Source: a bacterium
GTDB taxonomy: Bacteria > Vulcanimicrobiota > Vulcanimicrobiia > Vulcanimicrobiales > SCRA01
NCBI GenBank assembly: GCA_004298665.1
Contig: SCQY01000092.1
Location: 1 to 55,998 of the forward strand
DNA length: 55,998 bases
Direction of reading: 5' to 3'
Notes under the pieces: generated by a model
What the model was told of the DNA's origin: nothing
The model's database searches: none
What the model saw: the letters and a program-made list of their open reading frames with translations, nothing else
Program-made: the position numbers and the translations under genes
In this document: positions 1 through 49,711 of the stretch, piece after piece
How positions within the stretch are numbered: the first letter of the stretch is position 1
Layout of the letters: each line of letters opens with the position of its first letter

Positions 1-2
1 GC

Positions 3-11830: not shown

Positions 11831-11832
11831 CT

Positions 11833-18987: not shown

Positions 18988-19236
18988 TTATCGGTCGTGA
19001 TGCGGCGCTGGCGGCGTCGGGACCGGAGCAGGGGTATCCCGTTGCTGCGGCCCCCCGCTCATGAGCACCTCAGAGATGCCAATGATTTCGCTCGCCGTCA
19101 AGTACCGTGCTTCGAGCACCGTGGTGGCGACACAAGCGATGGATCCGCTGCTCGAGCGAATCGCGATAACCACGCGCGTGCGCGCTGCGCGATCAGGATC
19201 GCGCAGGATGAGTTGGCGAGCCTCGTCGATGGTCAT
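18988..19236 (-). CDS. Small hypothetical protein
   Basis: An 82-residue product, ATG overlapping the helicase stop (ATGA). Begins MTIDEARQLILRDPDRAART followed by a beta hairpin and a Pro-rich tail (APVPTPPAPHHD). No family recognised; placed in the same operon as the helicase. Confidence 0.5.
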   Translation of the reverse strand: MTIDEARQLILRDPDRAARTRVVIAIRSSSGSIACVATTVLEARYLTASEIIGISEVLMSGGPQQRDTPAPVPTPPAPHHDR

Positions 19237-30038: not shown

Positions 30039-30112
30039 CTATATCTGGCTCACCTACACCAGGCGCCTAGTCCCCAGGTGGTGTGTACCGTCGCTTGGCG
30101 GTGGTGCAGATC

Positions 30113-30907
30113 ATGAACGGTGAGAATGGCTCAGGGGGAGACCGCACGATAGTCCGGCCCAACGCCGTTACGGCGCCGGGCTTCACGCCTGAAGCCTTCG
30201 ACGCGTCTCGCAGCGACCTTGAGCTGGCTCCACTTCCCGAGGATAGCTTTGGCGATGCGCTTGATCGCATCGACGCGCTAGTGGAAACAGTCAAGCTCCT
30301 CTTCCGGTGGCTGATACGGCCACTCGCTGTGATTGGGTGCCTATTGGCGCTGGCCGCCGTCGTCGCAGTTCGGCAGTTATCCGTCAAACCAAATGTCGTT
30401 CCATACGTTCAGGTCGTACGCGAGCGTTGTCTCGATATGAAGTGCCGGTCAATCGAGCGCGATGTCAGCGCACTGCAGCCAGTGGCGACTGATGAGCGAT
30501 CGAAGGACATCGTTGCGCGAGCCCTTCTCCCAGTCATCGTCCATCAGATGTTCGCCGTGTCTACCCCGCAACAGGACCAGTACGACTGGAGTCACGACGT
30601 CCTTCCCTTCATTGCCACGAACTCGCCCGCCGCGACCTTCGCGGCAACGTATCTTCAGAAGAACCAGATCGGCGCGTTCGCCGGCCACGGCACGGTGAAC
30701 GTGAGCGTCGATCCGGTCGATCCCCCGAGCGAGCCGAACGTCTACCTCGTCTCGTGGACCATGCAGACCGTGGCTCTTGATGGTACGGCTGCCCAGGCCC
30801 AGCGCAGCTTCGCACGGATCACCTTGAAGTGGGGGACGCCTACGGGAGATAACCGCAACGGGCTCCTTCTGGAGTCGATCGAGCTTGTGACGAAGGGGAG
30901 TAATTAA
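30113..30907 (+). CDS. virB8: VirB8/TrbF-type T4SS inner-membrane protein
   Basis: Bitopic assembly factor of type IV secretion systems. The 264-residue product has a polar N-terminus, one transmembrane segment (about 72-92, PLAVIGCLLALAAVVAV) and a periplasmic NTF2-like domain. It includes SKDIVARALLPVIVHQMFAV, VNVSVDPVDPPSEPNVYLVS, a TAQAQRSFARITLKW strand and a final GLLLESIELV, as in VirB8/TrbF. Starts at ATG 30113. First gene of the long secretion operon; 23 nt separate it from virB9. Confidence 0.85.
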   Translation: MNGENGSGGDRTIVRPNAVTAPGFTPEAFDASRSDLELAPLPEDSFGDALDRIDALVETVKLLFRWLIRPLAVIGCLLALAAVVAVRQLSVKPNVVPYVQVVRERCLDMKCRSIERDVSALQPVATDERSKDIVARALLPVIVHQMFAVSTPQQDQYDWSHDVLPFIATNSPAATFAATYLQKNQIGAFAGHGTVNVSVDPVDPPSEPNVYLVSWTMQTVALDGTAAQAQRSFARITLKWGTPTGDNRNGLLLESIELVTKGSN

Positions 30908-30930
30908 TCCACCATGAAGGGGAGTCTCCC

Positions 30931-31824
30931 GTGGTGATCATACCAACCCCTCAGCCGATCTCTCTCCACTCCCCGGCGCCAATCGCAACCCCAAGACCGG
31001 CGATCGCGACGCCCGCGCCGAGCCATCCGCAAAGTGGCGACGTGTACGTCGATGGGCAGGGCGTGGTTCGTACGATCTACTACGCCGGTGGTTCCATCGT
31101 GGTGAGCTGTGCGCCCAGCTCTACCTGTCGCGTTGAACTTCCGGCGGGCTCGGCCGTGAGCGGGGTTCTCAATCCTACGCCGGCGTGGCACGTGACGCCG
31201 GATAACGACGGGGCCACCCCCATGGTACTCGTCGTCCCCGATCCTGGGGCGCCCGATGCGGGGATCGTCGTGCAATCCAAGGCGCGGAGCTTCGCGATGA
31301 GGCTCCACCTTGATCCCGCTGCCGTGAACGCGACTTACGGGTATCTCTTTCCCGACCATGGTCGGGTGGTGCTCCCCAGCGCGAAGCCCGTGGAAGTAAC
31401 ATCCGAGGATGACCAGGCGAGTGCGGAGCCTTTCCAGGCGCCGATCGCGCCGGCGCCATGTCCCAGCGGCTACGCGATGACCTCGCAAGGCGATCCACCA
31501 TTTTGGCCTCGGCGCGTCTGGATCGCGAATGATGGCGTATCGATCGCGTTCTCGGCCAACGGCGTCATCCCCGTCGCCGCCGTTCCCCTCAGTGGCGCGC
31601 CGCTTCGCTCGCCGGTTGACTTGAGCCGCCTAGCGATGATCTCGCAGGCCGGGGAAATTGACGGCCAAGATCGCGTCGTACACGTGCTCGACTGCTATCC
31701 CACGATTGTGCTGTACCTCGGCTTTGGCAGGGATCGTCGCGCGGTGGTCCTACAGGCTCGTGCGGGAGGTACCCCTCAAGCCACGTCGTCTTCGCCAGCC
31801 AACCGCGACCAGGCCCAGCAATGA
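30931..31824 (+). CDS. virB9: VirB9/TrbG-type T4SS outer-membrane core protein
   Basis: Component of the T4SS outer-membrane core complex with VirB10. The 297-residue product carries CAPSSTCRVELPAGSAVSGV (about 60-79), AGIVVQSKARSFAMRLHL and NATYGYLFPD, typical of VirB9/TrbG, and a C-terminal beta domain with VWIANDGVSIAFSANG. The GTG start has GGGGAG upstream. Oddly no Sec signal peptide is visible: the N-terminus is Pro-rich (PTPQPISLHSPAPIATPRPA) and the frame closes just upstream. A start in another frame, an unusual export route or a sequencing error are possible. Confidence 0.85.
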   Translation: MVIIPTPQPISLHSPAPIATPRPAIATPAPSHPQSGDVYVDGQGVVRTIYYAGGSIVVSCAPSSTCRVELPAGSAVSGVLNPTPAWHVTPDNDGATPMVLVVPDPGAPDAGIVVQSKARSFAMRLHLDPAAVNATYGYLFPDHGRVVLPSAKPVEVTSEDDQASAEPFQAPIAPAPCPSGYAMTSQGDPPFWPRRVWIANDGVSIAFSANGVIPVAAVPLSGAPLRSPVDLSRLAMISQAGEIDGQDRVVHVLDCYPTIVLYLGFGRDRRAVVLQARAGGTPQATSSSPANRDQAQQ

Positions 31825-33161
31825 GCGTTTCGACGCAACCAGGAGGGCCTCTTCAGCCGAAACTTTCCTGGCGCGGCCGGCTGGCGCGCACAGCGGTGAC
31901 GGGCGTCGTCGCGCTGGTAGTGCTCGCGCTCTTCTTTCACGTGGATCTCCTCGGCTGGTCCGGGATACACCTGTGGCACGCGGTACACCCAACGCCGACT
32001 GTCAGCCCGATTGCATCACCCTCTGCCAACAGTGATGGTCTCCTGGGTGCGGCGATAGCAGAGATCACCGGGCAACCCGTCCATCCGACTCGGACACCTA
32101 CTCCGCAGGTTGCAGCGCCTGCGGCCGCCGCCCCCGGTGTATCCGGGGCTGCGGGGCGAGCCGGTCTATTGACTCCTGAGCAGCAACGCGAACTGGCCGA
32201 GTCCAATCGAGTCATTAGCCAGGTGAACGGCTCCCCGGTGGACGCGAACCCATTTAGCAACCTCGGGAAAGACATCGCATACCGGGAAACCGCTCCGACT
32301 GCGCAGCCAGCGCCACCGCCGGCCCCTGCGCCGACATCACCTCCGGTGCCCGCGCTCGTGACGCCTTCCCCCCTCACGTCGATGGGCCCGCTCCTTTCGA
32401 ATCCGTCGGCCCCGTCCATGGTCGGGACCGTGCCAGGACAGCAGAGCGGAGCACTTCCCGTGTCGATAGCTCAACTCGATCGGGCTGATGAGGCGTCGTT
32501 TGTCCAAACAACACAAACGGTATCGCCGTATACCAGCGCGGAAGTATCGCCAGCGCGCTCGCCAAACGAGATCTGGCCGAGCGACGGGATCGATTGCACC
32601 CTCAAGAATGCGATCTATTCAGATCTCCCAGGGATAGCGATTGGTCTTATCGCGAAGGACGTGAAGAGCCATCTTCCGCCCCACAACATTCTGATTCCGG
32701 CGACCAGTGAGGTCTGGGGTCCGTATAACGCGCTGGTTGGGCAAGGTCAGGACGCGATGCAGATTCGCTGGGATGTGCTAGCCTACCCCAATGGCGCGAC
32801 TTTGCCGCTTCAGAGTGTGCAAGCTACGGACGCGCGTGGGCGTGCTGGCATTCCCGCGGATGTGAACAACCACGTCGGTCGCGTGTACACCAGCACACTG
32901 ATCGGCACGATCCTTTCGGTGGCTGGCGGCATTGCGGCCGCACGCGCTGAAACGGTCGGTACGCCGTCTGTCGGGCAGCTCTTTGGCGTGAGCGCAAACA
33001 ACGCAGTGCAGCAGCAAGCCTCGCAACGGATGAGCGCCGCACAAAGCATTCCGCCAACGCTTATGGTGCACGGCGGTACACCGTGCCACCTACAGTTTGC
33101 CGCAATTCAGATGCTACCGACCTACAGCGAGGTTGTACGCAGCTACGGGGCTAGCCGATGA
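31821..33161 (+). CDS. virB10: VirB10/TrbI-type T4SS core protein
   Basis: Spans both membranes and links the T4SS core complex to the inner membrane. The 446-residue product has a transmembrane segment at about 24-43, a long Pro/Ala/Thr-rich periplasmic linker and the C-terminal TrbI beta-barrel domain. That domain shows DCTLKNAIYSDLPG, GLIAKDVKSHLPPHNILIPA, QIRWDVLAYPNG and GIPADVNNHVG. An alpha-helical antenna region follows (GTILSVAGGIAAARAE). Overlaps virB9 and virB1 by 4 nt each (ATGA). Confidence 0.93.
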   Translation: MSVSTQPGGPLQPKLSWRGRLARTAVTGVVALVVLALFFHVDLLGWSGIHLWHAVHPTPTVSPIASPSANSDGLLGAAIAEITGQPVHPTRTPTPQVAAPAAAAPGVSGAAGRAGLLTPEQQRELAESNRVISQVNGSPVDANPFSNLGKDIAYRETAPTAQPAPPPAPAPTSPPVPALVTPSPLTSMGPLLSNPSAPSMVGTVPGQQSGALPVSIAQLDRADEASFVQTTQTVSPYTSAEVSPARSPNEIWPSDGIDCTLKNAIYSDLPGIAIGLIAKDVKSHLPPHNILIPATSEVWGPYNALVGQGQDAMQIRWDVLAYPNGATLPLQSVQATDARGRAGIPADVNNHVGRVYTSTLIGTILSVAGGIAAARAETVGTPSVGQLFGVSANNAVQQQASQRMSAAQSIPPTLMVHGGTPCHLQFAAIQMLPTYSEVVRSYGASR

Positions 33162-33841
33162 TTTCACAGGCGGTGCTCGCCGGCGCGCTGTGGATCTTTG
33201 GGGTGTGCGCGCCCTCTGCGCCGCCGGCGCTGCTCGCCGGCATCGCGATGCAAGAGAGTGGCTTCGATCCGGACGCGATCAACGACGATACCATGCACAA
33301 ATCATACTACCCAGGGTCACCGAATGCCGCTGTGGACTTATCTGTGGCGTTGCAAGCGCACGGAGACCAGATCGACGTCGGCCTGCTCGGGATCGACTAT
33401 ACCGACTGGCAACGGCACGGCGTGCCATTGGTAGCCGCGTTCGATGAATGCACGAACGCACACGTGTCCGCAGAGATATTGATGGGCGACTACGCAAGTG
33501 CGACAGCCACAGGGTATCGCGGCGAGACGGCGTGGGTGGCAGCGCTCTCGCTCTACAACGCCGGTCGCATCACCCCACGCGGTCTCGCCTATGCGCGCTC
33601 GGTGCTTGCAAACACGCAGATGTTGTGGCCGCGGATCCAACTTGCTATGCGCCGGCCCACTGCGTCAGCCGCCTCCGCGCTGATAGCCCAGCAAGCCCCC
33701 GCTCCGACGAGCACTCCAGCCCCCTCCCTCACAGAGGCGGTACGTATTGCTCGCGAGCGCCAAACCCAAGCGTCACGCGCCTATGCAGCGATCGAGCGCG
33801 CCGTCCAAGCGCGTACGAAGGCGCAAAGAGGAGCCCCATGA
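33158..33841 (+). CDS. virB1: VirB1-like lytic transglycosylase
   Basis: Cuts peptidoglycan glycan strands so the machine can pass. The 227-residue product has a signal segment (AVLAGALWIFGVCAPSAPPA), catalytic Glu33 in IAMQESGFDP, then VGLLGIDYTDW, CTNAHVSAEILMGDY and LSLYNAGR, the lysozyme-like SLT order of VirB1. C-terminal 60 residues are a helical tail. The distance from signal segment to catalytic Glu is very short, so the signal may not be cleaved. Coupled to virB10 and pilB by ATGA overlaps. Confidence 0.85.
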   Translation: MISQAVLAGALWIFGVCAPSAPPALLAGIAMQESGFDPDAINDDTMHKSYYPGSPNAAVDLSVALQAHGDQIDVGLLGIDYTDWQRHGVPLVAAFDECTNAHVSAEILMGDYASATATGYRGETAWVAALSLYNAGRITPRGLAYARSVLANTQMLWPRIQLAMRRPTASAASALIAQQAPAPTSTPAPSLTEAVRIARERQTQASRAYAAIERAVQARTKAQRGAP

Positions 33842-35328
33842 CCGTACCCGAGCAAGCACTTCCGGCTGCCTCGGCAGACGTCTCGCTAGCGCCCGAAGCC
33901 ATGCGTCGGGCGCTCGGCCGCATCGGGCTTGGCGCGGCATTACGCGAACGGATCATTCCGATCTCGCTCGCGCGCGGGCGTCTCACGATTGGCGTTGATG
34001 GCGATACCAAAAAAGCCATCGCGTGGGCACGCGTACATGCTGGATTACGCGACATTGTCGCAGTTCCACTGGCTACTGCGCAAGTAAGCGCAACGTTACG
34101 CGAGCTGCGCGCTGCGAACGCTTCGCCGCCGCTTAGCCGTGCCGAGGAGCAGATCGCGCGCGCGGTCACAACCGTAGCGATCGGCGGCGGCAGTGATCTC
34201 TTTGCGCTGCCTGACCAGACCGGTGTTCGACTCATTGCGAAGATCAACGGCGCAGCGCGTGAGATCAGCCGAATGGACAGCGCGACGTATGAGCAGTCCC
34301 TGATCGCAGGGTCCGTATCGGGTCACCTCGGTGGTACGGCGCACCTACGCGAGTCACAGAGTTGCGGCTATCAGATCGACTACGACGCTGTACGCGTTTC
34401 TTGCCGCCTTCGCACGTACCCGCGAACGATCCGGATCGGTACGGAAACGAAAATCGTCCCGGCACTGGACTTCCGTATCCACCCGGACCAGGACGATCTC
34501 CCGCGTCCAGACGAGCTCGGTATCCGTGCCGAGGCGATAGCGGCATTACGCCGGGTACTGGCCGAGGAACGGCTTCCAGTCTTAGTAAGCGGGGAGCCCG
34601 GTGTCGGCAAAACGACAACTCTTTTTTCCATTCTGCGGGAGATTGCTAAGGTCTGGCCGTTCATCTACACGTTCGAGGCACCCATTGAGATGGTCGTCGA
34701 CGAGCTCATCCAGCGCGAAGTTCCGACAATCTCAGATGCCATCCCCGACCGTGAAGCCCTGTTACAGATGAACCCGGATATCGTGTTCATCGGTGAAGCG
34801 CTCGGCCGCGGCTCCTTTGCACCGTTGCTTGATTTTATCGAGACCAATGTGCCAAGCGTGACGACGCTTCACGAGCGCACCGCTCTAGGCGCGCTCTACC
34901 GGGCAGTCCAGCTCGGTGGCGATCGCTACCTCACGAAGGCCAGGCTCATATGGTGCCAAGCGCTCATCGCGCCGGTCTGCCACAACTGCGGTACGCAAGG
35001 CTCACCGAGCGCGGCAGTGGAGTATCGGTTTAAGCTCCACGAGACGCCGCCCCCAACCACGACGTGGCGGCGAACAGTGGGGGCCGACTGCGCCTATTGT
35101 CAGGGGCTCGGGGTGACTGGTCCTCGTCGTCCACTGGTGGAGTTCTTCCACGTCAATGCCGGGGTCCGCGAGGTAGTCCGCGGTGGAGCATGGAACCCGG
35201 GAGCGCTGCGCAAGCTCGTCTACCCCTCCCCAGAGGGGATGACCATTGCCGGATCCGGGGCAGAAGCGCTCCGCGCAGGGGAGATCGACGAAACCGAGTT
35301 CCTTAGGCTCGGAGACGACCTGGTGTAG
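33838..35328 (+). CDS. pilB: PilB/GspE-type secretion ATPase
   Basis: Extension ATPase of type IV pilus or type II secretion machines. The 496-residue product has Walker A GEPGVGKTTT near 252-260, Walker B-like PDIVFIGEALGRG near 312 and a His box SVTTLHERT. A zinc knuckle follows (CHNCG and CAYCQGLGVTGPRRP). The N-terminal domain resembles GspE N1/N2. The usual GExRD after Walker B reads GEALG, a variant. The ATG has GAGGAG upstream and overlaps the virB1 stop. Its presence directly after virB1 joins T4SS and pilus genes in one transcript. Confidence 0.92.
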   Translation: MTVPEQALPAASADVSLAPEAMRRALGRIGLGAALRERIIPISLARGRLTIGVDGDTKKAIAWARVHAGLRDIVAVPLATAQVSATLRELRAANASPPLSRAEEQIARAVTTVAIGGGSDLFALPDQTGVRLIAKINGAAREISRMDSATYEQSLIAGSVSGHLGGTAHLRESQSCGYQIDYDAVRVSCRLRTYPRTIRIGTETKIVPALDFRIHPDQDDLPRPDELGIRAEAIAALRRVLAEERLPVLVSGEPGVGKTTTLFSILREIAKVWPFIYTFEAPIEMVVDELIQREVPTISDAIPDREALLQMNPDIVFIGEALGRGSFAPLLDFIETNVPSVTTLHERTALGALYRAVQLGGDRYLTKARLIWCQALIAPVCHNCGTQGSPSAAVEYRFKLHETPPPTTTWRRTVGADCAYCQGLGVTGPRRPLVEFFHVNAGVREVVRGGAWNPGALRKLVYPSPEGMTIAGSGAEALRAGEIDETEFLRLGDDLV

Positions 35329-35357
35329 TGCACTCGAAGGAGAAGGAGAGTAGACAA

Positions 35358-36473
35358 GTGCAGCCGATCGATGGGAAGCTTGCCCCCTTTGACGGGCGCG
35401 GCGAGCGTTTTGCCGGCAAGGCGGGTTTTGGCGCGTACTGTGAACAGCTGCGCGAGGCCGGCGTGTCGGACCTCATGATTCGGCAAACGCCACTGCGGAT
35501 CGCGGTCTGTACCCGCGCCCGGTTCAGGCGCTTTCCTGACGAGCTGGCACCGTACGCGCTCGAGTGGCTGCGTCATTTCGAGGAGCTTTATCTGAAGCCG
35601 GGTGTGCTGCAGGATCGTTGGAATCGTGAAAAGACGCTCGATGTAGCTCACCGCCTCCCAGGCGGAGGATTTGCGCGCCTGCACTTCTGGCGCCAGGGTG
35701 GGTTGAACCTGAGCGCGCGGATTCACCCGGCGCATCCGCCTTTGCTTGACGATGTGCTCCCTATCGAGAGTGAACGCGAGGAACAGATTCGCAGGGATCT
35801 GATTGCTATGCTTACACGCCGCCAAGGGCTCATTGTCATAGGCGGCCAGGTACGATCCGGCAAGACGTGGCTCGAGCACGCGCTGTACGATTACCTGAAT
35901 CGTCACACGGAGGGTGGTCACGCATGGCTGATCGGAGATCCACTCGAGTTTGAGCACGAGGACGAGGGCTGGATTTTCACACCGAACGATGTGAGCGAAC
36001 GCGGGACCACTCAGGATTATGAGATCCGCCGGTCGTTGCGCGTCCCGCGCACGCTTATCGGCGTCGGCGAGATGCGCGGGGACACCGCATCAACCGAAGC
36101 TACGCTTACCGCGGCACTTGCGGGAACGCTGGTCGTCGCTACCGGACACTTCTCCGATGTGCAGGACATCGTTTCGCGCTTCTCGCTTGGGTCGGCGGCA
36201 ATGAGTGAGCAGAGCAAGCGCAGCGTCTTCCTCGAGGCCTTGCAAGGCGTAATCCACTTGGCGCTTGCGCCGGGGATCGACGGCCGCGAGGTACTAGTAG
36301 TCTCCTACACCGATTTTGGCCAGCACGCGAATCTCAAGACGGACCTGGCCGAAGGCAAACGCGTGGGGCCGACAACAATCGACGTCGGCTATCGCCCGCT
36401 TGCGGCGGATGCGGCGCTGCTCGTTTCGAAGATCGGCCGCGACGCGGCTACTGCACTTGGGGCGCGAGTGTAA
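35358..36473 (+). CDS. pilT: PilT/PilU-type retraction ATPase
   Basis: Motor ATPase of the PilT branch. The 371-residue product (GTG start preceded by GGAGAG) has an N-terminal PAS-like domain with GVSDLMIRQTPLRIAV, Walker A GGQVRSGKTWLE near 161-172, LIGDPLEFEHED as Asp box, LIGVGEMRGDT as Walker B and TLVVATGHFSDVQDIV as His box. These match PilT, with GQVRSGKT replacing GPTGSGKS. A C-terminal FSLGSAAMSEQS-type segment corresponds to the PilT end region. No zinc knuckle, unlike the PilB next door. Confidence 0.88.
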   Translation: MQPIDGKLAPFDGRGERFAGKAGFGAYCEQLREAGVSDLMIRQTPLRIAVCTRARFRRFPDELAPYALEWLRHFEELYLKPGVLQDRWNREKTLDVAHRLPGGGFARLHFWRQGGLNLSARIHPAHPPLLDDVLPIESEREEQIRRDLIAMLTRRQGLIVIGGQVRSGKTWLEHALYDYLNRHTEGGHAWLIGDPLEFEHEDEGWIFTPNDVSERGTTQDYEIRRSLRVPRTLIGVGEMRGDTASTEATLTAALAGTLVVATGHFSDVQDIVSRFSLGSAAMSEQSKRSVFLEALQGVIHLALAPGIDGREVLVVSYTDFGQHANLKTDLAEGKRVGPTTIDVGYRPLAADAALLVSKIGRDAATALGARV

Positions 36474-37685
36474 ATGCCGATCTATCGCGTTACGTCGGTA
36501 ACCGAGCAGGGCATTCCGCAAACGGGTGAGCGATACGCCAGGGACTTGCGCGAGCTCGCCGATCGTGAGCGCGCCGCGCGCCGCCAGCTTGTCGATTGGG
36601 GCACGGTGCGCACGCGCCGAGTGCACGACGGAGCATACGCGCACGAGAAACAGCTCTTCTTTCACCGCTTTGCGCAGGCGATGCGCCACCGAGGGTACGA
36701 TCGGGCAACAACCGCGCAGTACCTTATGGAGGTATTTCCCGAGCGGGACAAGCGCTCACATCAGCTGATGCGAAGCGTGCTTTCGACACTCGCTGAGACA
36801 GAGCTACCACTAGCAATGTCCCAGCATCCACAGCTCTTCACGATCGAGGAGGTCGAGGCGGTCGCTGCGTCACGGAATGTGCGCGAAACGCTCTCGATGT
36901 TGGCACGCACGGCGTACGACCGCCGCTCGCTCACGCGCGAGCTCGCCGCGATTATCACGGTGCCGGCGATCGTCGGGACGAGTCTCGTGTTCATCGGCGC
37001 CTTCGTGCTCTTCTACCTGGTACCGATGCTGGAAAGCAACGTATTCCCCTACACGCAGAACGTGCCAGCATTCTTTCAGTGGCTGAGCGCGGCGCGTGCT
37101 TGGCTGTTCCGCCCCCTCGATCTAGGCCTTGTGGTGCTCGTGCTTGCCGTCTTGTTTGCGGGGGGCATCACCCTGTACCAGGTACCGGCGGTGCAGGTAT
37201 GGCTCGTGGGACAGCTCTACCGGAACTCGCGTGGATACGGTCGGGTCCTGCATGGGTTCGAGCGCCGCCGGATTTACACGGCGTGGATCCAGACGCTCGA
37301 GTCGGAGGGGATCGACGCACTGATCGGGCGGGGAATGCAACTAGCCAACGAGGCTGGCCGCAGGGCGTTCAAGCGCGCCGCCGCGCGAGCTCCCCAGGGG
37401 ATCAATCCACTCACCCGCCTACGGGCCGCCACCCCGTACCTCCCCGCCCAGGAGGTGGGGTTACTGGTGGAGGGGTTCAGTGAGGGTGGAGTGAAGGCTA
37501 CCCGGGAGGTCCTGGAGGAGTTGGTAGCCGAGCTGAACGAGAGCATCCCCTTCGACATCGCTCAAGCAAAGGATGAGATACGGGTCGCCCTCACCGTTGC
37601 GCTGACCTCCATCATCATCACGGGGTTGGTTCTCTTCTCAGGTGCGGTATTCTACACACTGTTTCATTTACGGGCGAAGGGATAG
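36474..37685 (+). CDS. pilC: PilC/GspF inner-membrane platform protein
   Basis: Polytopic platform that couples the ATPases to pilus assembly. The 403-residue product has two cytoplasmic helical domains separated by transmembrane segments at about 160-185 and 215-240 and a final one at about 370-395. FHRFAQAMRHRGYDRATTAQ is the first GspF domain and YTAWIQTLESEGIDALIGRG the second. Length and topology are standard for PilC/GspF. It follows pilT without spacing and precedes the pilin-like gene by 3 nt. Confidence 0.9.
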   Translation: MPIYRVTSVTEQGIPQTGERYARDLRELADRERAARRQLVDWGTVRTRRVHDGAYAHEKQLFFHRFAQAMRHRGYDRATTAQYLMEVFPERDKRSHQLMRSVLSTLAETELPLAMSQHPQLFTIEEVEAVAASRNVRETLSMLARTAYDRRSLTRELAAIITVPAIVGTSLVFIGAFVLFYLVPMLESNVFPYTQNVPAFFQWLSAARAWLFRPLDLGLVVLVLAVLFAGGITLYQVPAVQVWLVGQLYRNSRGYGRVLHGFERRRIYTAWIQTLESEGIDALIGRGMQLANEAGRRAFKRAAARAPQGINPLTRLRAATPYLPAQEVGLLVEGFSEGGVKATREVLEELVAELNESIPFDIAQAKDEIRVALTVALTSIIITGLVLFSGAVFYTLFHLRAKG

Positions 37686-37688
37686 GAC

Positions 37689-41221: not shown

Positions 41222-42747
41222 GATCCACCGGTTCGACTCGAGGAGTCCCACCAACCCACAAAGGACGTATAGTGCGCCACCAACCCCTCCTGATTACTCT
41301 CGCTCTGGCATCGGGTCTCCTCGCCATGGACGTCCTCCCTGGCTCCGCGCAATCCGTGCTCTCTACGAATGGGATCCCACTCTCAGCCGCCCTTTCGGCG
41401 ACGGCGCGCGCGGCAAACGAGCGGTTGTGGATTCTGCCCGGCACACCCAACCCGCCCCAGGTCGGCTCGGTTGTCGGCACGACCCCGCGTGAGGCGCTCG
41501 CTCGTCTGCTCGATCTCAATGGCCTTGTGGCCCGGGAGCACAACGGCGTGCTCGTGGTCGGAACGCCCCTAGCGATGGATGCCCGATTCGGATCCGGAAC
41601 GGCCCACGCGCGGCTCGTTCCGGTCGTGGGGTTGGACCCGCAGGTGGTCGTGCAGACGCTGGCGCCGCAGCTTCCGGCGGGGACCGTCATCCTACCGGAC
41701 ACGGCGCGCCACGCGCTCTACGTGTCGGGAACCACGATGGCGCTGCGCCAGGTGGAGTCTTTTGTGGCGCCGCTCAACCAAAGGCAACCCGACGTCGTTC
41801 GCTATCCGCTCCACAGCAGTGCCGACCCGGCGCAGGTGACAGCGCTCCTCGAGAAGGTCGCGCCGCCGGCAGCCCCTGAATCGGTGGTAGTTGATCCCGC
41901 GGGCGGGGCGGTGCTGGTAGCTGGGCCGCCGGGATATCAGGGCGAAGTCAGCGCAGCCCTGGCGCAGATCGATCGCGATCCAGCGCAGGTGAAGTACCAT
42001 ATCTCGGTCATCGAGGTTGACCCCGTACAGCTCGCCCATAACGTTGGCATCTCCGTCGGGCAGAGCCAGACCCAATATCAGGCGGTCGGGCAGTCTGCGA
42101 TCGGGCAGTTGTCGTCCCCGGCACAGGGCCAAGCGATCTTTGCGTTCCCGTTGAATCACGGGCTCTCGCTCAACGGCGAACTCGACCTTCTTGAGTCGCA
42201 CGGACAAGCGCGGTTCATCCGCGATCAAGACATCACCGTGGTGAACGGTACGCAAGGGGTGGCCGACTTCACGGAACAGCTTCCGTATCAGGTGACCACG
42301 CAGAACGGCTTTTCGGTCACGACTGGTACACAGTACCAGTCCTTCGGATTCACGATTAAGTTGACGCCGCAGATCGGCGATAGCACGATCGGCACCACGG
42401 CCAACGTGGTGTACTCAACGCTTGCTGGCTTTGGCGTCGGCGGTGCACCGATCACCACGACGCGCGGTATGACCACGCGCGTAACGACGACCGACGGTCA
42501 GACCTTTCTCGTCGGCGGACTGAAAGCGGAAGACTTTACGACGACGGCATCAGGGATCCCAATACTCGACAGGCTGCCACTGCTCGGGGCGTTGTTCCGG
42601 CATGCGCACGACCAAGACAATCAGCAGGAGCTCGTGATGGTAATCAGCGCGCAGCGCATTGGGGCGGTTGACGCGATAGATACCTCGCGCTATCCGCACG
42701 TAGCACCCTACGTGTTGGCGTCTCCGCTTCCAGGAGGCAAGAAATGA
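41218..42747 (+). CDS. pilQ: Secretin (PilQ/GspD family)
   Basis: Outer-membrane channel. The 509-residue product has a signal peptide (LLITLALASGLLAMDV, then GSAQS), an STN-like domain (LSTNGIPLSAALSATARA), two N-domains with ATP-independent ring folds (RYPLHSSADPAQVTALLEKV) and the C-terminal secretin domain. In that domain VVNGTQGVADFTEQLPYQV and TTDGQTFLVGGLKAED are followed by IPILDRLPLLGALFRHAHD, diagnostic for secretins. The ATG at 41218 has GGAGG 7 nt upstream; a GTG at 41272 also has a ribosome site. Proves a diderm host. Confidence 0.93.
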   Translation: MRSTGSTRGVPPTHKGRIVRHQPLLITLALASGLLAMDVLPGSAQSVLSTNGIPLSAALSATARAANERLWILPGTPNPPQVGSVVGTTPREALARLLDLNGLVAREHNGVLVVGTPLAMDARFGSGTAHARLVPVVGLDPQVVVQTLAPQLPAGTVILPDTARHALYVSGTTMALRQVESFVAPLNQRQPDVVRYPLHSSADPAQVTALLEKVAPPAAPESVVVDPAGGAVLVAGPPGYQGEVSAALAQIDRDPAQVKYHISVIEVDPVQLAHNVGISVGQSQTQYQAVGQSAIGQLSSPAQGQAIFAFPLNHGLSLNGELDLLESHGQARFIRDQDITVVNGTQGVADFTEQLPYQVTTQNGFSVTTGTQYQSFGFTIKLTPQIGDSTIGTTANVVYSTLAGFGVGGAPITTTRGMTTRVTTTDGQTFLVGGLKAEDFTTTASGIPILDRLPLLGALFRHAHDQDNQQELVMVISAQRIGAVDAIDTSRYPHVAPYVLASPLPGGKK

Positions 42748-45700
42748 TCATCTACGAGCTCGGTCGCAAGGTGGCGCCGCTGCTCGGCCCGCAGCTCGAG
42801 CGCCGAGGGCCTTTCGCGCCCGGCGACCGCGTGGCCGTGACTGTACCACTTGTAAACGAGCGCCAAGTTCCGCTCGAGCGCGTGCAAGTGCGATTCTGCG
42901 CCGACCATCCTGAGGTGCGGTTTGATCCGGAATCGGTGGACATTCCACTCGTGGGAGGCGGGGAGCAGCTACGCGTAGAGACATCGCTGCTGGTGCCACA
43001 GCTTTCGAGCGCAATCGAGAGCGTACGTGTGTGGGCTGTTCTTCACAACCAGGTAGTCGGATCGCTCGAGACAGCGCATGCTGAGGTACGGATTGAGTCA
43101 CGCGCGGCGCTGCGTGCCGATTGCGACGAGACGGATCTGATCATCACAAACGTCGGTACGGCGGCTGCGCGCGTCCACATCGACGGTGATCGCACGCTGC
43201 CACCGGACTGGACCACTGAACGGATGAATATCCAGCCAGGGGGGGAGCTACGCTTATCGCTGCCCATCGAACCACTCGGGGTGCTGCGTTGCATCGAGGA
43301 GACTAGCGGGGAGCGGACGGTGGTGATCGACCGGCGTTCCGGTGCGCAGCCGCCTCGCCTATCAACACGCGGTGAGGCTCGCGGACCTCAGAGCGGCGTC
43401 CGTGTCGGGGATCTCCTCCCAATCGCGATCGAGGTACTCAATAGCGGAGGACCGGCGTACGACGCCGAGATTACGCTTAACCTTCCGGGCGGAGTGACCC
43501 TACTCTCCGGCTACACCACACGCGACGACGTGCCGCTGCTGGACGAAGACATCGTGCGCCGGGGTCGACAGGTCGATATCCGTCTTGGCTGCATCCAAGC
43601 GCAGGAGCACACTGTCGTGCGCGGCGCGGCGCGGGTCGAGCAGCTAACGACCGAAGCCGATTCGCTCGCGTTTGCTGGTGAGGTACGAGCAGCCGAAACC
43701 AGCGATCAACTCCGCTTCGGTACGCGCGTTTTGCGTGCCCCGGCGCTTTCTGGGCACGGCACCTACTTTGCCCCTCTTCGAGAGGATGAGCAGGGTCTGA
43801 TCCATACGACCCTGACGATCACGAACGCCCACGGCGAGCCTGTCGATGGCGCACTGGCGCTAACCGCTCACGGCGCGCAGATCGAAACCGTCACGCGCGA
43901 GGGACGTTCGCTCGAGCTCGGCGCTGATGCAGTCGATTACGGAACCCTCGTGGAGATCGGATCGATCGCAGCACGCTCGCGCGTAAGTATGACGATCATC
44001 GCCTCGCGGATCCCACTCGCGAGCGACGTTGGCTTCGAGGCGCGCATGGTCGTTGGTGGACGGACGCTCCCCTTAGCTGAAGTGCACCAAGAGCTCGTCG
44101 CAGAGCCGCGCGTGTCACTGACGCTGCGGCCGCAGCGCGAGGCGCGCGTACGCGTCGGGCAACCTTGCCTCCTCGAAGTATCACTGGCCAATCACGGGTC
44201 AGATCCACTTCGGGGCGCGCGCTTGCGTCCCGTCGTCCCAGAAGGCGTACGCATGCGCCTGCCGGTGAAAGAAGAGGGGGGCTGGTATCCCCTCGCGGGA
44301 GCACTCGCGCCGCTCGGCGGCCGCACGGGGTTTCCACTGCTCGTCGAGTTGAGTGAGCCGCCCTATGGCAACGCAATCGAGGTTGCGATCGAAGTCGACA
44401 GCGACAACGCGCCTTTGGTTCGCAGCGAGGCCGTCGTAATCGCAACGCCGTCGTCACCGACCCTGATTCTCTCCGAGCCCGAGCTACGGGAGGTTGGCAA
44501 GCGTGGCCTAGTGGAGGTCCGGGTACGCGTGGCGAACCGTTCCGACGGCGTAGCTCGCGATGTCTGGCTCGCCGTCAGAGCAGAGGATCGCCCGGTGCCA
44601 TTCACCGCGACGCTCGATGCGCACTCCGTTGACGAGCGCGGCCGAGGCGGCTCAATGCTGTCGGAAGGGATGCCGCTGGGGGATCTGCCCCCGGGAACGC
44701 AACGTGACGTCGCGTGGTATGCGGCGCCAAGCGGGCCTTCGTACTATACTAAAATCACCGTTCGTGGTGAGCCCGGGATTCAGCGCGTCGTAGACGGCGG
44801 CATCGAGCTGGCCGATCAGGCGTGGTTCACAAGCGAGCCGCTTCCCGCGCGGCCGATCGACGAGAACGTACCCATCGCTGGGGTAACGGCTGCCGCACCT
44901 GATCCATTCCAAAAGGCGCTGGATCAAAGCCCGGACCGGGCTCTGGAAACGGCAGACGAACGACGAGCGCTCGGTTCTGGCGAAGAAGCGGGCACTCGAG
45001 CAGAAGCCGATGCCCTTGCGCCTACGCGAGGTATCGAGCCGTCCGCCCCCGCGCTGACAATGGGCTCGCCGAGCTTGTCGACGGAGGAGCCTGCGCAACC
45101 TCTTGCGCGGCCGATCGACGAGGCTCTCACTGTGGCACAGCACTCGTCCAGTCCAGTTGATACCCTCGTGGCATTCTTCGATAAGGTCGGGATGCCGAGT
45201 GGGGAGCCCTCACAGACCGACGAAGCCGCGGGCGAAGTATCTTCAGTCGCGTCTGAGGAGACGACGCATGACACAGATGTAGCAGCAGCTCCGGCAACGC
45301 AAATCGCGGAGTCGGGAGCCGAGGCAACGGCGCATCGCGAGGTGGAAGAATCGGCGCCGCTAGAGGACTCCGACCTGGAGGACGGAGAGAGTCCAGCGAC
45401 TCCACCACCACCAGAGCTCGCGCCGATCGATCCTGTCGTGGAGCGGCCGGACGCCTTCGGCCTGTCCTTCGGATTTTCGATTGTTGAGATGGTGCGTGGC
45501 ACGGTTCCGTCCGATATCTGGAGGACCGCGCTTGCGCAGGCGGTGGTGCTGCGTCTACTCGGACCTCGTGAGCCCGCGGTACTCGCGCGTCGCGACACCG
45601 TAGTTCAGTATGCGCCGCAGCTTCTCAGTGAGGGCATCACCGATGGAGAAGTGCGAGCCTGGTTCGCGCGGATATTGGCTGGGTGGTGTGGGGGAGAGCT

Positions 45701-45911
45701 AGGGCCACGAGCAGACGAAGCCGCCCTAGCGGCCCTACAAGGTTACACCGTCCCGAGTCCCTATGTCGGGGCATTCGACGACTACCTAGCGGAGCTTGAG
45801 GACACCTACCCGCTGCGCACACCAGGAGCCTATCTTGATGCGCTCGAGAGCGCGAGCGTACCCGGAGTCGTCGATGCACTCGCACAGCTCGTAAAGGCGG
45901 TCAGGCCATGA
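42744..45911 (+). CDS. Giant CARDB/DUF11-like repeat protein without signal peptide
   Basis: Unrecognised 1055-residue protein in the pilus operon. Residues 1-700 are a string of Ig-like beta domains of the DUF11/CARDB kind, with repeated themes such as RVGDLLPIAIEVLNSGGPAY, RVGQPCLLEVSLANHGSDPL and LVEVRVRVANRSDGVAR. Residues about 700-890 are acidic, Pro/Glu/Ala-rich and probably disordered. The last 150 residues are a helical domain (SDIWRTALAQAVVLRLLG; PGVVDALAQLVKAV). No signal peptide, lipobox or membrane helix is visible, although such domains are normally extracellular. Coupled to secretin and next gene by ATGA overlaps. Possibly a passenger of the machine. Confidence 0.7.
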   Translation: MIIYELGRKVAPLLGPQLERRGPFAPGDRVAVTVPLVNERQVPLERVQVRFCADHPEVRFDPESVDIPLVGGGEQLRVETSLLVPQLSSAIESVRVWAVLHNQVVGSLETAHAEVRIESRAALRADCDETDLIITNVGTAAARVHIDGDRTLPPDWTTERMNIQPGGELRLSLPIEPLGVLRCIEETSGERTVVIDRRSGAQPPRLSTRGEARGPQSGVRVGDLLPIAIEVLNSGGPAYDAEITLNLPGGVTLLSGYTTRDDVPLLDEDIVRRGRQVDIRLGCIQAQEHTVVRGAARVEQLTTEADSLAFAGEVRAAETSDQLRFGTRVLRAPALSGHGTYFAPLREDEQGLIHTTLTITNAHGEPVDGALALTAHGAQIETVTREGRSLELGADAVDYGTLVEIGSIAARSRVSMTIIASRIPLASDVGFEARMVVGGRTLPLAEVHQELVAEPRVSLTLRPQREARVRVGQPCLLEVSLANHGSDPLRGARLRPVVPEGVRMRLPVKEEGGWYPLAGALAPLGGRTGFPLLVELSEPPYGNAIEVAIEVDSDNAPLVRSEAVVIATPSSPTLILSEPELREVGKRGLVEVRVRVANRSDGVARDVWLAVRAEDRPVPFTATLDAHSVDERGRGGSMLSEGMPLGDLPPGTQRDVAWYAAPSGPSYYTKITVRGEPGIQRVVDGGIELADQAWFTSEPLPARPIDENVPIAGVTAAAPDPFQKALDQSPDRALETADERRALGSGEEAGTRAEADALAPTRGIEPSAPALTMGSPSLSTEEPAQPLARPIDEALTVAQHSSSPVDTLVAFFDKVGMPSGEPSQTDEAAGEVSSVASEETTHDTDVAAAPATQIAESGAEATAHREVEESAPLEDSDLEDGESPATPPPPELAPIDPVVERPDAFGLSFGFSIVEMVRGTVPSDIWRTALAQAVVLRLLGPREPAVLARRDTVVQYAPQLLSEGITDGEVRAWFARILAGWCGGELGPRADEAALAALQGYTVPSPYVGAFDDYLAELEDTYPLRTPGAYLDALESASVPGVVDALAQLVKAVRP

Positions 45912-46582
45912 TCGCGCTGGCCATCATGGCTGTGAGTGCAGCGGCTTTTACTGCGGTCCTTAGCCGCCTGCTGCTCGCCGAGCCGCGCGTGACGGAGCTT
46001 GAGATCCCGGACGTGATCTCGCCGCTCGCACGTCGTGTCGCGCTGTCCCCATCGTCGCAGCCGCGGCAGCACGGGGTGCGCCGCAGCGTCGCACTGCGCC
46101 TCCCGCACCTGCATGTTCCTACCCTCCGACTCCCCCGGTTGCCACGGTGGCATGTACCGAAGCAAGCGTTTCGTCTGCATATCACCTGGCGCTGGCCGCA
46201 GGTACGCGTCCCGAAGCTTGCATTCCGCCTACCGGCGCGCGGTCGGGTGATCTCGCCTCCGCAGCCGGCGGCAGTTGTGCCCGCTCCTGAACCCGCTCCG
46301 GCGGCCGCTGCGCCACAGATCCCGGCGTGGCTTGCGGATCTCGACGTACAGGAGGTTCCGCCCGTTGATCGGCGGGTGTGGCTCTGCTGGCTGCACGTAA
46401 GCGCGTATGTCGGCGAACGCCGCGAGGCCTTTCTGACGCTCGTCGAGGAGAGCGACCCCGAACTCATCAGTGTTGCGCGTCTTGCGCGCCAAACGGACAG
46501 ACCGCTCGTCATTTACACCTTGGAGGAGGCGCAACGGTGGAGTCAGCAGATCGGGACGCAGAGCAGCTCCTCTGCCGCATAG
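45908..46582 (+). CDS. Membrane-anchored basic repeat protein
   Basis: A 224-residue product with an N-terminal transmembrane segment (about 2-24) and then a basic stretch with repeated strands built on VPxLxxRLP, for example LPHLHVPTLRLPRLPRWHVP and PQVRVPKLAFRLP. A Pro/Ala linker leads to a helical C-terminal domain (RRVWLCWLHVSAYVGERREA). No family recognised. Overlaps the HD-GYP gene by 46 nt. Confidence 0.6.
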   Translation: MIALAIMAVSAAAFTAVLSRLLLAEPRVTELEIPDVISPLARRVALSPSSQPRQHGVRRSVALRLPHLHVPTLRLPRLPRWHVPKQAFRLHITWRWPQVRVPKLAFRLPARGRVISPPQPAAVVPAPEPAPAAAAPQIPAWLADLDVQEVPPVDRRVWLCWLHVSAYVGERREAFLTLVEESDPELISVARLARQTDRPLVIYTLEEAQRWSQQIGTQSSSSAA

Positions 46583-47097
46583 TGCGGCACCGTGAAACGC
46601 TGCGTCACTCACTGGCGACTCGGGACCTCGCTTATGCGCTCGCGATCGCATGTGGCTGCGACTCAACGCGCGCCCGCGCAATCGCGTGTGCCGCGCTCCT
46701 CCATGATGTCGGCAAAGGGACGCTCCCCGAGTCCTTGCTGGACGCGCCGCGTCGACTGACGCATGACGAGACGCTGCTGCTGCGCACGCATGCCCAGGCG
46801 GGGGCGCGCATTGCGGCGCACGCCGGCATCGACTCGGAGATCTGCCAATGGATCGGGTTGCACCACGAACGCCCGGATGGCTCAGGCTATGAGGGCATCC
46901 GCGGTGACGCCATTCCCACGGAAGCACGAATCGTCATCGTGGCGGATGTCTGGGAAGCCACTGGGGCCCAGCGCCCCTACAGCCCCTATCACACACGGAG
47001 CGAGCGCTGGCGCATTCTCATAGAAACCGGCTGTGCGCGAGAGGTAGCGGCGTTACACACACTGCTTGAGGAGGATGTCCTTGCTCGGGTTGGATGA
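46537..47097 (+). CDS. HD-GYP-type c-di-GMP phosphodiesterase
   Basis: Predicted to degrade cyclic di-GMP. The 186-residue product is a bare catalytic domain with HDVGKG at 56-61, LTHDETLLLRTHAQAGARIA, then HHERPDGSGYEG from 109 and EARIVIVADVWEA. The signature GYP triad reads GYE; the HHExxDGxGY part is intact. GTG start with GGAGG 10 nt upstream. No receiver or sensor domain, so control would come from partners. With the GGDEF gene four genes downstream it can set local c-di-GMP for the pilus motor. Confidence 0.87.
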   Translation: MESADRDAEQLLCRIVRHRETLRHSLATRDLAYALAIACGCDSTRARAIACAALLHDVGKGTLPESLLDAPRRLTHDETLLLRTHAQAGARIAAHAGIDSEICQWIGLHHERPDGSGYEGIRGDAIPTEARIVIVADVWEATGAQRPYSPYHTRSERWRILIETGCAREVAALHTLLEEDVLARVG

Positions 47098-47479
47098 GGC
47101 CCTGGTGGACGGCGAGCGTCTGTCGGTCTACCAGCTTGGCGAGGGCCTCGGGGTCTTGGCATCACCCCCGCTTACGGCGCGCGGCTACCGCTACGGCGAT
47201 TTAGTGCAGACGGCTTACGAGGATGGGCAGCTGGCTGTACGCCGGATCGTGCGGGCAGGCACTGCTCGCAGTTGGCGCTTCTCGCATCGTTTGGATATTC
47301 CAGCGCTCCAAGCTTTGGTGGAGCAATGCAGTTGGATGGGCGCGGTAATGCGCGCGACAGCGCACGAGCTCGTCGTGGCTGTACCGGCGAACGTCTCCGC
47401 TTTCCCCGTCCTCGAGAGGATACGCAATGCCGGGGTGGCTGCGGCTGGGTCGGCGCTCGATATGGAGGTGGTCGCATGA
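47075..47479 (+). CDS. DUF4265-like small protein, copy 1
   Basis: A 134-residue product; ATG 47075 or TTG 47081 are both possible starts near GAGGAGG. It contains YRYGDLVQTAYEDGQLAVRR, a beta core, and a helical PALQALVEQCSWMGAVMRAT followed by LVVAVPANVS. Aligns with the next gene product over its whole length (xYGDxxxxxxxDGxLxxxxI, then LVxxxxxxGxxxRxxxxxLxVxVP), so the pair arose by tandem duplication. DUF4265 assignment is tentative. Function unknown. Confidence 0.6.
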   Translation: MSLLGLDEALVDGERLSVYQLGEGLGVLASPPLTARGYRYGDLVQTAYEDGQLAVRRIVRAGTARSWRFSHRLDIPALQALVEQCSWMGAVMRATAHELVVAVPANVSAFPVLERIRNAGVAAAGSALDMEVVA

Positions 47480-47895
47480 GCTTTCCCTCAGCACTCCGGA
47501 CGCGCCCCGGGCTCATCGTCTACCGCGGCGGGCTGAGCGAACCGATCGCGCTCTTACCCGTCGCAACCGGGTGGCGCGTTGCCGAGGTGCCACTCGGCAG
47601 CGAAGCTGTCGCCTTCGGCGACTACGCGACAGTCCGCGAGCTATCCGATGGGCGCTTACAGATCATCGGCATCCGGCAAGGTGGGTGGCGCACGCTGCGG
47701 TCACGGACGGTGATCCCACCACGGGAAGAACTCGTCACCGAGCTTGCCGCCCGCGGGTGGCTTGGCCGCTGGAACGAGGACGGTTATCTGGCCGTTGGCG
47801 TACCCATGGAGGTCTGGCCCGAGGCGCGCCGTGTCCTCGACCATTGGGAAGCGAGTGCTCTCGTGGAGCGCTTCGAGCGGGGCATCGCGTCGTGA
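47476..47895 (+). CDS. DUF4265-like small protein, copy 2
   Basis: A 139-residue product, ATG overlapping the previous stop. Carries AVAFGDYATVRELSDGRLQI and ELVTELAARGWLGRWNEDGY followed by LAVGVP, aligned with copy 1. The two have diverged strongly, so distinct roles or a heterodimer are likely. Overlaps the pseudo-ATPase gene by 4 nt. Confidence 0.6.
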   Translation: MSFPSALRTRPGLIVYRGGLSEPIALLPVATGWRVAEVPLGSEAVAFGDYATVRELSDGRLQIIGIRQGGWRTLRSRTVIPPREELVTELAARGWLGRWNEDGYLAVGVPMEVWPEARRVLDHWEASALVERFERGIAS

Positions 47896-48884
47896 GTCGT
47901 ACCGCATGGCTGCGTCCCATCCTGGATACCCACCCGACGCTGGAGCGGGTGATTGTCAGTGCCGATCCGCTCGTACCGACGCTGTGGATCGCCGATCAGC
48001 ATGGCTGGCAAGTGGTCGCCGAACGCCAGGTCATCGACGCGGTCACGCAGGCGCTAAGCCAGAACCTCTCCGATGACGATCAAGTGGCCTTCACGAGCGC
48101 TGGCGTGGTTACGCACGTCGAGGCGATTGACGGCGTCGGACAGGTCACAATGCGCCATATCCGCGGCCCTGTATCGTCGACGATCGTGACGATCGCGCCG
48201 ATCGCGCTCGAAGGGGATCTCGGCAGGTGGGGTGTCGATCCTGCGCTCGTGCAAGGCCTCTACGCCCGCCAGCGCGGATTGGTTCTCGTCGGCGGCATGA
48301 GCGGGATGGCGTCGCAGCTTTCGCGCGCACTTTTTACCGAGGTCACAGCGCATGCGATCGATGCTCCTGCTGGAGTCATCGGTGCACGCCCCGTTGCGCG
48401 CGCGATCGCCAGAACGCCTTGGCTCTGGATCGCGTGTGACCCGCGCGCCGGCGTGACGCGCATCGAGGACGCGGCCGAGAGCCTAGCTGAACTAGCGCAG
48501 ATCGTCTTACTGGACGTCGGCGGAGGCCCTGGCACCGTGGAGGGAGCGATTCGCCTCGTCGACGGCGGGGCACTCGTGATAGCTCAGGTTCCCGGAGATG
48601 GGGTGCAGGCGATACTCGAGCGCTGGGAAGCCGCAGTCCCCAGCGCCGAGCGCGCAACGTGGACCGCGACAGTCGGCGCGCTCCGTGCGATCATCGCGAC
48701 CGAACAGATCACCGGCCGATTCGGCCCAGAGACAATCGCCGAGTGGCTCCCCATCGACGCGACCGCCCGAACGACCTTAGCCCGAGAGGGCCCGAGCGGC
48801 AGCGCAGCGCTGCTATCCCTTCCCGGTGCGCGTTCACGTGAAGCCGCGATCACGGCGCTTCGCGTCAAAGGGCGCGTGGCGTGA
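47892..48884 (+). CDS. Degenerate PilT/PilB-family ATPase (pseudo-ATPase)
   Basis: Looks like a motor-ATPase fold that can no longer bind nucleotide normally. The 330-residue product has a PilT-like order: a PAS-like N-terminus, RHIRGPVSSTIVTIAPIAL, then RGLVLVGGMSGMASQLSRAL near 126-145. There the P-loop should be GxTGxGKS; Gly-Lys-Ser/Thr is replaced by GMAS, with no Lys. The later AQIVLLDVGGGPGTVE takes the Walker B place without the Glu, and GALVIAQVPGDGVQAILERW aligns with the His-box strand. The frame is intact and coupled, so it is likely a structural or regulatory partner. GTG start at 47892. Confidence 0.6.
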   Translation: MSRTAWLRPILDTHPTLERVIVSADPLVPTLWIADQHGWQVVAERQVIDAVTQALSQNLSDDDQVAFTSAGVVTHVEAIDGVGQVTMRHIRGPVSSTIVTIAPIALEGDLGRWGVDPALVQGLYARQRGLVLVGGMSGMASQLSRALFTEVTAHAIDAPAGVIGARPVARAIARTPWLWIACDPRAGVTRIEDAAESLAELAQIVLLDVGGGPGTVEGAIRLVDGGALVIAQVPGDGVQAILERWEAAVPSAERATWTATVGALRAIIATEQITGRFGPETIAEWLPIDATARTTLAREGPSGSAALLSLPGARSREAAITALRVKGRVA

Positions 48885-49711
48885 TCGATTGGGAACGGGC
48901 CTACCAGAGGCTGGCCGAGGTCCCATTCCAGCCACGAGCCGTCGCGCACGCGTTCGCACTGGCGACCGGCGCCCGGCGCGTCGTCTACTTCCCACCCGCC
49001 GCGGCGGGCCTCGCTCCAGAGGGCATCGACGCAGTCGGAGCACGGATCCGCCGCTACATTCCATCAGCCTTCGAATTCAGTGAGCGCTGCATCGGGAATG
49101 GTCGTGACGGCCTCTGCCCTGTCGCCGATCGCGACCCGGGGCTCTGGTTCACTGTTCGGCTCGCCAAGCGCGCCGGCGGCGTCGCGGTCCTCCAGGCACC
49201 GCATCCACCCGATGAGGCATTCTCTACGTTCTGCCTCGTGGCGCTCGCTCGGATCATCGCGGACGCCGAGGTGACGGCGGCGCGAGAGCACGCGGCGCGC
49301 GATCCCCTTACCGGGCTACTACGGCGCGAGGCACTCGAAGCGCAGGTGGCACGAATGGAGCGCTACATTGTCATCGCCATCGACTGCAATGGCCTCAAGG
49401 CGATCAACGATACCCAGGGGCATGCCGCCGGCGACCGGTACCTTCAGGCGGCCGCGGCCGCGCTTCAACACGCCGTCCGCACCGGCGACCCCGTCGCAAG
49501 GTTCGGGGGAGATGAGTTTGTCGTCGTGGGTCCATCGCTCGACGTGGTAGGGCGCGTCCGTTCTTGCCTCGCCGCGGCGTCGGTTTCCGCCTCGCTCGGC
49601 GCGGCGGTGGCTCCCGACGACGGCATGGATTTTGCGAGCGTGCTCGCGCGCGCCGACGCGCGGATGTACGAGGAAAAACGCGCCTACCATGAGATGCGTG
49701 GCGCGCGATGA
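48881..49711 (+). CDS. GGDEF diguanylate cyclase with N-terminal sensor-like domain
   Basis: Makes cyclic di-GMP from GTP. The 276-residue product has an N-terminal GAF-like domain (about 1-135) and a GGDEF domain: DPLTGLLRREALE, IDCNGLKAINDTQGHAAGD, and the intact GGDEF near 209-213. RTGD lies exactly five residues upstream, the RxxD product-inhibition site. No transmembrane segment. Last gene of the operon, starting at an ATGA-type overlap (GTGATCG region). Pairs with the HD-GYP gene. Confidence 0.92.
   Translation: MIDWERAYQRLAEVPFQPRAVAHAFALATGARRVVYFPPAAAGLAPEGIDAVGARIRRYIPSAFEFSERCIGNGRDGLCPVADRDPGLWFTVRLAKRAGGVAVLQAPHPPDEAFSTFCLVALARIIADAEVTAAREHAARDPLTGLLRREALEAQVARMERYIVIAIDCNGLKAINDTQGHAAGDRYLQAAAAALQHAVRTGDPVARFGGDEFVVVGPSLDVVGRVRSCLAAASVSASLGAAVAPDDGMDFASVLARADARMYEEKRAYHEMRGAR

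Follow-up and report, generated by a model that had tools for sequence, protein, structure and literature searches.

The window analysed here is the whole 55,998 nucleotide (nt) contig SCQY01000092.1 (C52) of the metagenome-assembled genome (MAG) GCA_004298665.1, and it contains an operon in which VirB genes of a type IV secretion system (T4SS) run directly into the genes of a type IV pilus (T4P). The MAG (3.16 Mb in 362 contigs, ~90% complete) derives from an uncultured bacterium of the phylum Candidatus Eremiobacterota. The operon is likely to belong to a conjugative plasmid of ~113 kb and to encode one half of its transfer apparatus, the plasmid being broken into the contig pairs C266+C52 and C350+C31 and encoding a complete T4SS of the mating-pair formation type MPF_T as well as a retractable T4P. 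The order of the operon is repeated on a strongly diverged contig of the same MAG, C280, and the rest of the T4SS genes are also present in the MAG.

Window proteins were assigned to families with Pfam and NCBIfam profile searches. Other comparisons employed hhalign, phmmer, PDB sequence searches, Foldseek searches with AlphaFold2 (AF2) models, tetranucleotide correlation and contig-end matching. All genes of the operon were on the plus strand, in the order VirB8, VirB9, VirB10, VirB1, PilB, PilT, PilC, pilin, prepilin peptidase, PilM, PilN, PilO, PilP and PilQ, followed by a 1055-aa protein, an HD-GYP protein, a degenerate PilT-like protein and a GGDEF protein. This run, leading from virB8/9/10/1 into pil genes and then cyclic di-GMP (c-di-GMP) enzymes, had been reported in a preliminary description made from the sequence alone, and the profile searches confirmed it as real, with weaker assignments for VirB8, the pilin and PilM/N/O/P. 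The junctions had been described as mostly 4-nt overlaps, which was a little too strong: 15 of the 20 junctions overlap, but only nine by exactly 4 nt, VirB9/VirB10, VirB10/VirB1 and VirB1/PilB among them. The proposal that the T4SS core and the T4P are made together was supported by the compact operon and the recurrence of its order in C280.

VirB9 and VirB10 were backed by family profiles. VirB10 (TrbI family, 31821..33161) matched PF03743 (E 1.9e-31), with further support from protein alignment, and the VirB9-like protein (30931..31824) matched CagX (E 1.9e-7) and the VirB9 proteins of the phylum (hhalign 96.6%, E 6e-10). The protein preceding VirB9 (30101..30907) is tentatively VirB8-like. 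Its hhalign match to eight VirB8 proteins of the phylum was weak (64%, E 7e-5), and the top Foldseek matches of its low-confidence AF2 model were VirB8/TraE (E 0.06). This model and that of PilM were made from single sequences, with predicted local distance difference test (pLDDT) values of 52 and 44, respectively, and their fold-search matches were weak. The VirB1 lytic transglycosylase (33158..33841; SLT, E 4e-7) had homologues in the VirB1 proteins of C280 and of other members of the phylum.

The assembly ATPase, retraction ATPase, platform protein, prepilin peptidase and secretin of a pilus machine were all present. PilB (33838..35328) matched T2SSE (E 2e-22), and a joint profile of the window and C280 PilB proteins had the T4P protein PilF as its best PDB match (E 2e-46). 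PilT (35328..36473, starting at 35328 or 35358) matched T2SSE (E 4e-10) and, in a phmmer search of PDB, the PilT structure 5fl3 (E 1.5e-14). Since the ATPases are PilB/PilF-like and PilT-like, the cluster encodes a T4P rather than a type II secretion system (T2SS), and the latter reading was ruled out. The match of the platform protein PilC (36474..37685) to T2SSF was weak (E 3e-4, under the curated cut-off) and its assignment also relies on position. The PilQ secretin (41272..42747) was supported by the Secretin family (E 2e-27), by PilQ of C280 and by GspD/PilQ structures in PDB. The remaining components, the pilin and PilM, PilN, PilO and PilP, had no Pfam or NCBIfam match, and were named from their position, their size and the matching gene order of C280. 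These are PilM-like (38605..39414; C280 counterpart of 257 aa, E 0.04; no clear identity from the fold search), PilN-like (39392..39994), PilO-like (39991..40602) and PilP-like (40541..41221) proteins. The pilin-like candidate (37689..38219), chosen by position and an N-terminal hydrophobic helix, was without a canonical leader or Glu5. Candidates without the G-1/E5 prepilin signature were also recorded at L078 6252-7925 and L003 8751-9203, yet the window operon encodes an A24 prepilin peptidase (38162..38614, possibly starting at 38210; Peptidase_A24, E 3e-8). The signature was present in a pilin on C137.

A large protein directly follows the secretin in both systems: 1055 aa in the window (42744..45911; weak NPCBM_assoc match, E 0.0016) and 785 aa on C280 (L003 2202-4559). 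Neither had an obvious signal peptide, and they had no sequence similarity to each other. In the window, it is followed by a 224-aa protein with an N-terminal hydrophobic segment and no family match (45908..46582), a c-di-GMP phosphodiesterase domain of the HD-GYP type (46537..47097; HD_5, E 3e-23), a 124-aa DUF4265-like protein (47105..47479; E 1e-4, under the curated cut-off) and a 139-aa open reading frame (ORF; 47476..47895). The next ORF (47892..48884) is a degenerate PilT relative that has lost its Walker A motif (14.7 bits to the window PilT, no PDB match), and it precedes a diguanylate cyclase with an intact GGDEF motif (48881..49711; E 7e-25).

A search of the MAG for VirB10 recovered a single other copy, on C280. 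On one strand, this contig carries VirD4, VirB11, a possible VirB2, VirB3, VirB4, a possible VirB5, VirB6, VirB8, VirB9, VirB10, VirB1, PilB, PilT and PilC, followed by possible pilin, PilM, PilN, PilO and PilP genes, PilQ, the 785-aa protein and a 388-aa protein. VirD4, VirB11, VirB3, VirB4, VirB6, VirB8 and VirB9 were called by Pfam. All VirB genes and VirD4 were thus contiguous with the pilus genes (L003/L004). The window and C280 were collinear, with matches in VirB9 (E 6e-4), VirB10 (3.5e-16), VirB1 (5e-15), PilB (1.3e-15), PilT (2.5e-5) and PilQ (4e-22), at only 23-27% protein identity. Judging from this divergence, the VirB10-VirB1-PilB junction occurs in two long-separated sequences.

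Contig C227 resembled C280 in composition (tetranucleotide correlation 0.95) and carried a relaxase (98 bits). It encoded homologues of the C350 ParA (362 bits) and of the window SRAP (213 bits), SSB (131 bits), HD-GYP (75.5 bits) and GGDEF (73.7 bits) proteins. An intact PilT gene lay directly ahead of its GGDEF gene, in the place of the degenerate PilT-like ORF of the window. The enzymes of c-di-GMP turnover, together with an additional PilT-like protein, are thus a recurrent part of the system. The best reading of C227 and C280 is that together they represent another plasmid of this family, built from the same parts.

VirB4, VirB6, VirB11 and VirD4 had been described as missing. Within the window this was correct, but the genome does carry such genes, on C350, C31 and C280, and their absence from the element was ruled out as far as the genome shows. 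The search of the rest of the element for VirB4 and VirD4, which the preliminary description had suggested, located them in the MAG on C350 and C31, and their link to the window is inferred. The VirB4 model TIGR00929 matched C350 and C280, and VirD4 profiles matched C31 and C280. The match on C350 (20998-24228) scored 94.7 bits, far under the curated cut-off of 643. A 1076-aa protein of C350 (L082 9999-13229) is an apparent VirB3-VirB4 fusion, VirB3-like in look at its N-terminus and VirB4-like at its C-terminus. C350 also carried a VirB11-like ATPase (T2SSE, 7e-7), ParA, a possible replication protein and, by order and sequence look, VirB2-like, VirB5-like and VirB6-like candidates. A PLD-family nuclease with a signal peptide adjoins the VirB6-like gene (L076 7223-8095) and has a homologue on C227 (128 bits). 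VirD4 (222 bits), a topoisomerase and three pilin-like ORFs were found on C31. On C266 lay genes for a NikA-like protein and for a relaxase-like protein that has an LPD7 domain and is MOBP-like, at 24.7 bits just above the cut-off of 24.6.

Exact end overlaps joined C350 to C31 (106 bp) and C52 (window 1..120) to the relaxase contig C266 (120 bp). The MAG holds two sets of contigs with VirB10, VirB4, VirD4, ParA and relaxase genes, and the set on C52, C350 and C31 contained no duplicates. Together with C266 this complementary set amounts to ~113 kb: VirB8, VirB9, VirB10, VirB1 and the T4P on C52, VirB2, VirB3/VirB4, VirB5, VirB6 and VirB11 on C350, VirD4 on C31 and the relaxase on C266. The tetranucleotide correlation of the operon was 0.92 with C350 and 0.91 with C31, compared with 0.82-0.85 for contigs taken as chromosomal. 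Since the sets are complementary, non-redundant and alike in composition, we suggest that the C350/C31 genes and those of the window form one T4SS, and that the four contigs belong to one plasmid. With this other half encoded on contigs of the MAG, the system would be an unusual relative of pilus-assisted conjugative plasmids and not a motorless machine.

Several findings weigh against this reconstruction. Contig-end matching found no overlap between the C52/C266 pair and the C350/C31 pair, and the right ends of C52, C31 and C266 and the left end of C350 matched no other contig end. The part of C52 labelled C52a correlated equally well with C227 (0.95), making composition alone weak. The VirB2, VirB5 and VirB6 candidates of C350 had no significant family match, and no convincing lipobox ORF for VirB7 was seen in the 28-50 kb region of the window. 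The window VirB9 lacks a Sec signal peptide at its sole available start and has no in-frame upstream extension, unlike VirB9 of C280. Finally, no class III prepilin leader (G-1, E5) was present at the available starts of the candidates in the window, C31 and C280, although these candidates were picked by position and the true pilin may have been missed.

If the plasmid is reconstructed correctly and transfers, VirB2, the VirB3-VirB4 fusion, VirB11 and the VirB5-like and VirB6-like proteins of C350, with VirD4 of C31, would supply the inner-membrane motor, T4SS pilus and coupling protein. VirB8, VirB9, VirB10 and VirB1 of the window would supply the arches, the core in the outer membrane and the enzyme that cuts the cell wall. 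PilB, PilT, PilC and PilMNOPQ, with the pilins, would build a second fibre passing through its own secretin. In this model of two machines, which we favour, the T4P would find and bind recipients, as it does for IncI plasmids, and retract to pull them in, after which relaxase-bound DNA would pass via the T4SS. Pilus production is probably timed by the HD-GYP and GGDEF enzymes.

A different division of labour, with both conduits in one device or the pilus as motor of the T4SS, had been put forward in the preliminary description. We found no support for it, as VirB4, VirB11 and VirD4 are on C350 and C31. A chimeric conduit, in which the VirB9-VirB10 core and the PilP-PilQ secretin share one channel, or VirB4 and VirD4 feed DNA into the T4P channel as proposed for PAPI-1, seems unlikely. 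Such a conduit would fit the fact that VirB10, VirB1 and PilB are translationally coupled in the window and follow one another in C280 as well, and a model of this kind has been published for PAPI-1 (PMC12857230). However, each of the two plasmids has the genes for a full T4SS as well as a full T4P, and neither machine would need the channel of the other; plasmid R721 has both systems side by side, and the T4P of IncI plasmids is an accessory for liquid mating. A shared operon alone does not demonstrate physical contact. We are equally doubtful of one composite envelope structure under c-di-GMP control, made of the VirB8-9-10 core and PilMNOPQ, in which the VirB channel shares parts with the PilB/PilT-driven pilus dynamics; nothing observed here favours a composite channel or shared conduit.

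It is also rather improbable that VirB8-9-10-1 were recruited to the pilus as a stand-alone reduced machine for DNA uptake or protein export, the other T4SS genes of the MAG coming from other elements. The position of VirB8-10 in a pilus operon apart from other VirB genes is consistent with such recruitment, as are the missing physical link to C350 and the VirB9 without a signal peptide, which suggests divergence. Yet the C350/C31 set has no VirB8, VirB9 or VirB10 and would itself be incomplete minus the window, the compositions of the window, C350 and C31 agree, and C280 has the full set directly contiguous. A chimera of assembly or binning could be imagined in so fragmented and incomplete a MAG, but it is highly improbable, given the 4-nt reading-frame overlaps across VirB10-VirB1-PilB. 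The junction, moreover, is not confined to this sequence, and its repetition in so diverged a contig as C280 rules out an assembly error.

Outside this MAG, no co-occurrence of VirB10 and pil genes was found in the loci examined in the phylum and in GTDB. VirB10 matches were obtained in 17 of the 149 genomes of the phylum. The VirB T4SS of the 16 others has related proteins in the same VirB8-VirB9-VirB10(-VirB1) order, but differs in having no pil genes in the flanks examined (most loci), only VirB11-like ATPases. Of the 80 GTDB-representative loci that carry the closest VirB4 matches, 64 had VirB10 in reach and none had downstream pil genes, although some loci were too short to extend that far. 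The best PLSDB matches to PilB that were examined lay in T2SS or T4P clusters without VirB genes, except for Variovorax sp. WDL1 plasmid 2, in which the T4P genes are preceded by F-type tra genes. Scans of genome contigs with VirB10 alone gave no confirmed relatives, nor did PilB and VirB4 scans of viral contigs reveal any. The VirB10 alignment was too divergent for a pattern search. No paper on such plasmids in Eremiobacterota was found in the literature searched.

Elsewhere in the window, a PRTRC cluster (8966-13021) comprised ThiF (250 bits), protein B (151 bits) and a PRTRC-E-like protein with a PEGA domain. A VWA-domain protein, an AAA_5 ATPase and a strawberry-notch-type helicase lay in a row on the minus strand (15920-22196). 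The contig also carries plasmid-borne SSB (3-428), ERF recombinase (25585-26295) and SRAP (53354-54034) genes, the SSB and SRAP with the C227 homologues mentioned above.

Plasmid R721 already provides a case of VirB T4SS genes that lead into a T4P cluster. R721 and TP114, both IncI2, combine an MPF_T T4SS with a T4P and are among the closest known systems, and R721 was typed as MPF_T and MOBP with the T4P adjacent. This contradicts the earlier statement that a T4SS core and a T4P secretin are normally alternatives. On one strand, R721 runs from VirB1-B2-B3-B4-(B8)-B9-B10-B11-VirD4 into a secretin, PilO, PilP, ATPase, PilR, pilin, lytic transglycosylase, A24 peptidase and PilV. R721 has an LPD7-domain protein beside mobC and also carries a type IA topoisomerase; likewise, the C266 relaxase has LPD7 and C31 encodes a topoisomerase. 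The R721 pilus is of type IVb and has a shufflon PilV, and its annotation includes no retraction ATPase; no PilV-like shufflon adhesin gene was seen in the window operon. In R721, VirD4 adjoins the pil genes, whereas VirB1 does so here, and its annotated cluster genes include no HD-GYP or GGDEF. By phmmer, the C266 relaxase and the window PilQ did not match the relaxase and the secretin of R721, respectively. The TP114 pilus is reported to display adhesins that confer conjugation specificity (PMC9045228). IncI1 plasmid R64 likewise has a T4P, its thin pilus, which aids liquid mating, and a T4SS (PMC12857230), but the latter is Dot/Icm-like (MPF_I) and the two clusters are separate. According to the same 2025 review, IncI plasmids always require the T4SS, their T4P serving to augment mating in liquid, and in PAPI-1 a type IVb pilus is essential for transfer, a chimeric channel having been proposed. 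VirB4 and VirD4 are the sole clear T4SS homologues of PAPI-1, unlike the present system with its VirB8/9/10 core. The Variovorax plasmid has T4SS genes beside T4P genes, among them a retraction ATPase (PilT/PilU), but its T4SS genes are TraF/H/G (MPF_F) and not VirB8/9/10. What sets the present system apart is its IVa-like machine with PilT, its junction of VirB10, VirB1 and PilB, its c-di-GMP enzymes and its phylum.

The coupling of a VirB-type core to a T4P thus extends beyond the IncI plasmids of enterobacteria and the islands of Pseudomonas. The VirB10-VirB1-PilB junction is retained in two diverged, probable plasmids of a single uncultured Eremiobacterota genome. With their own retraction ATPase and c-di-GMP enzymes, unlike R721 as annotated, they would offer a new setting in which to test the idea that pilus retraction draws mating cells together.

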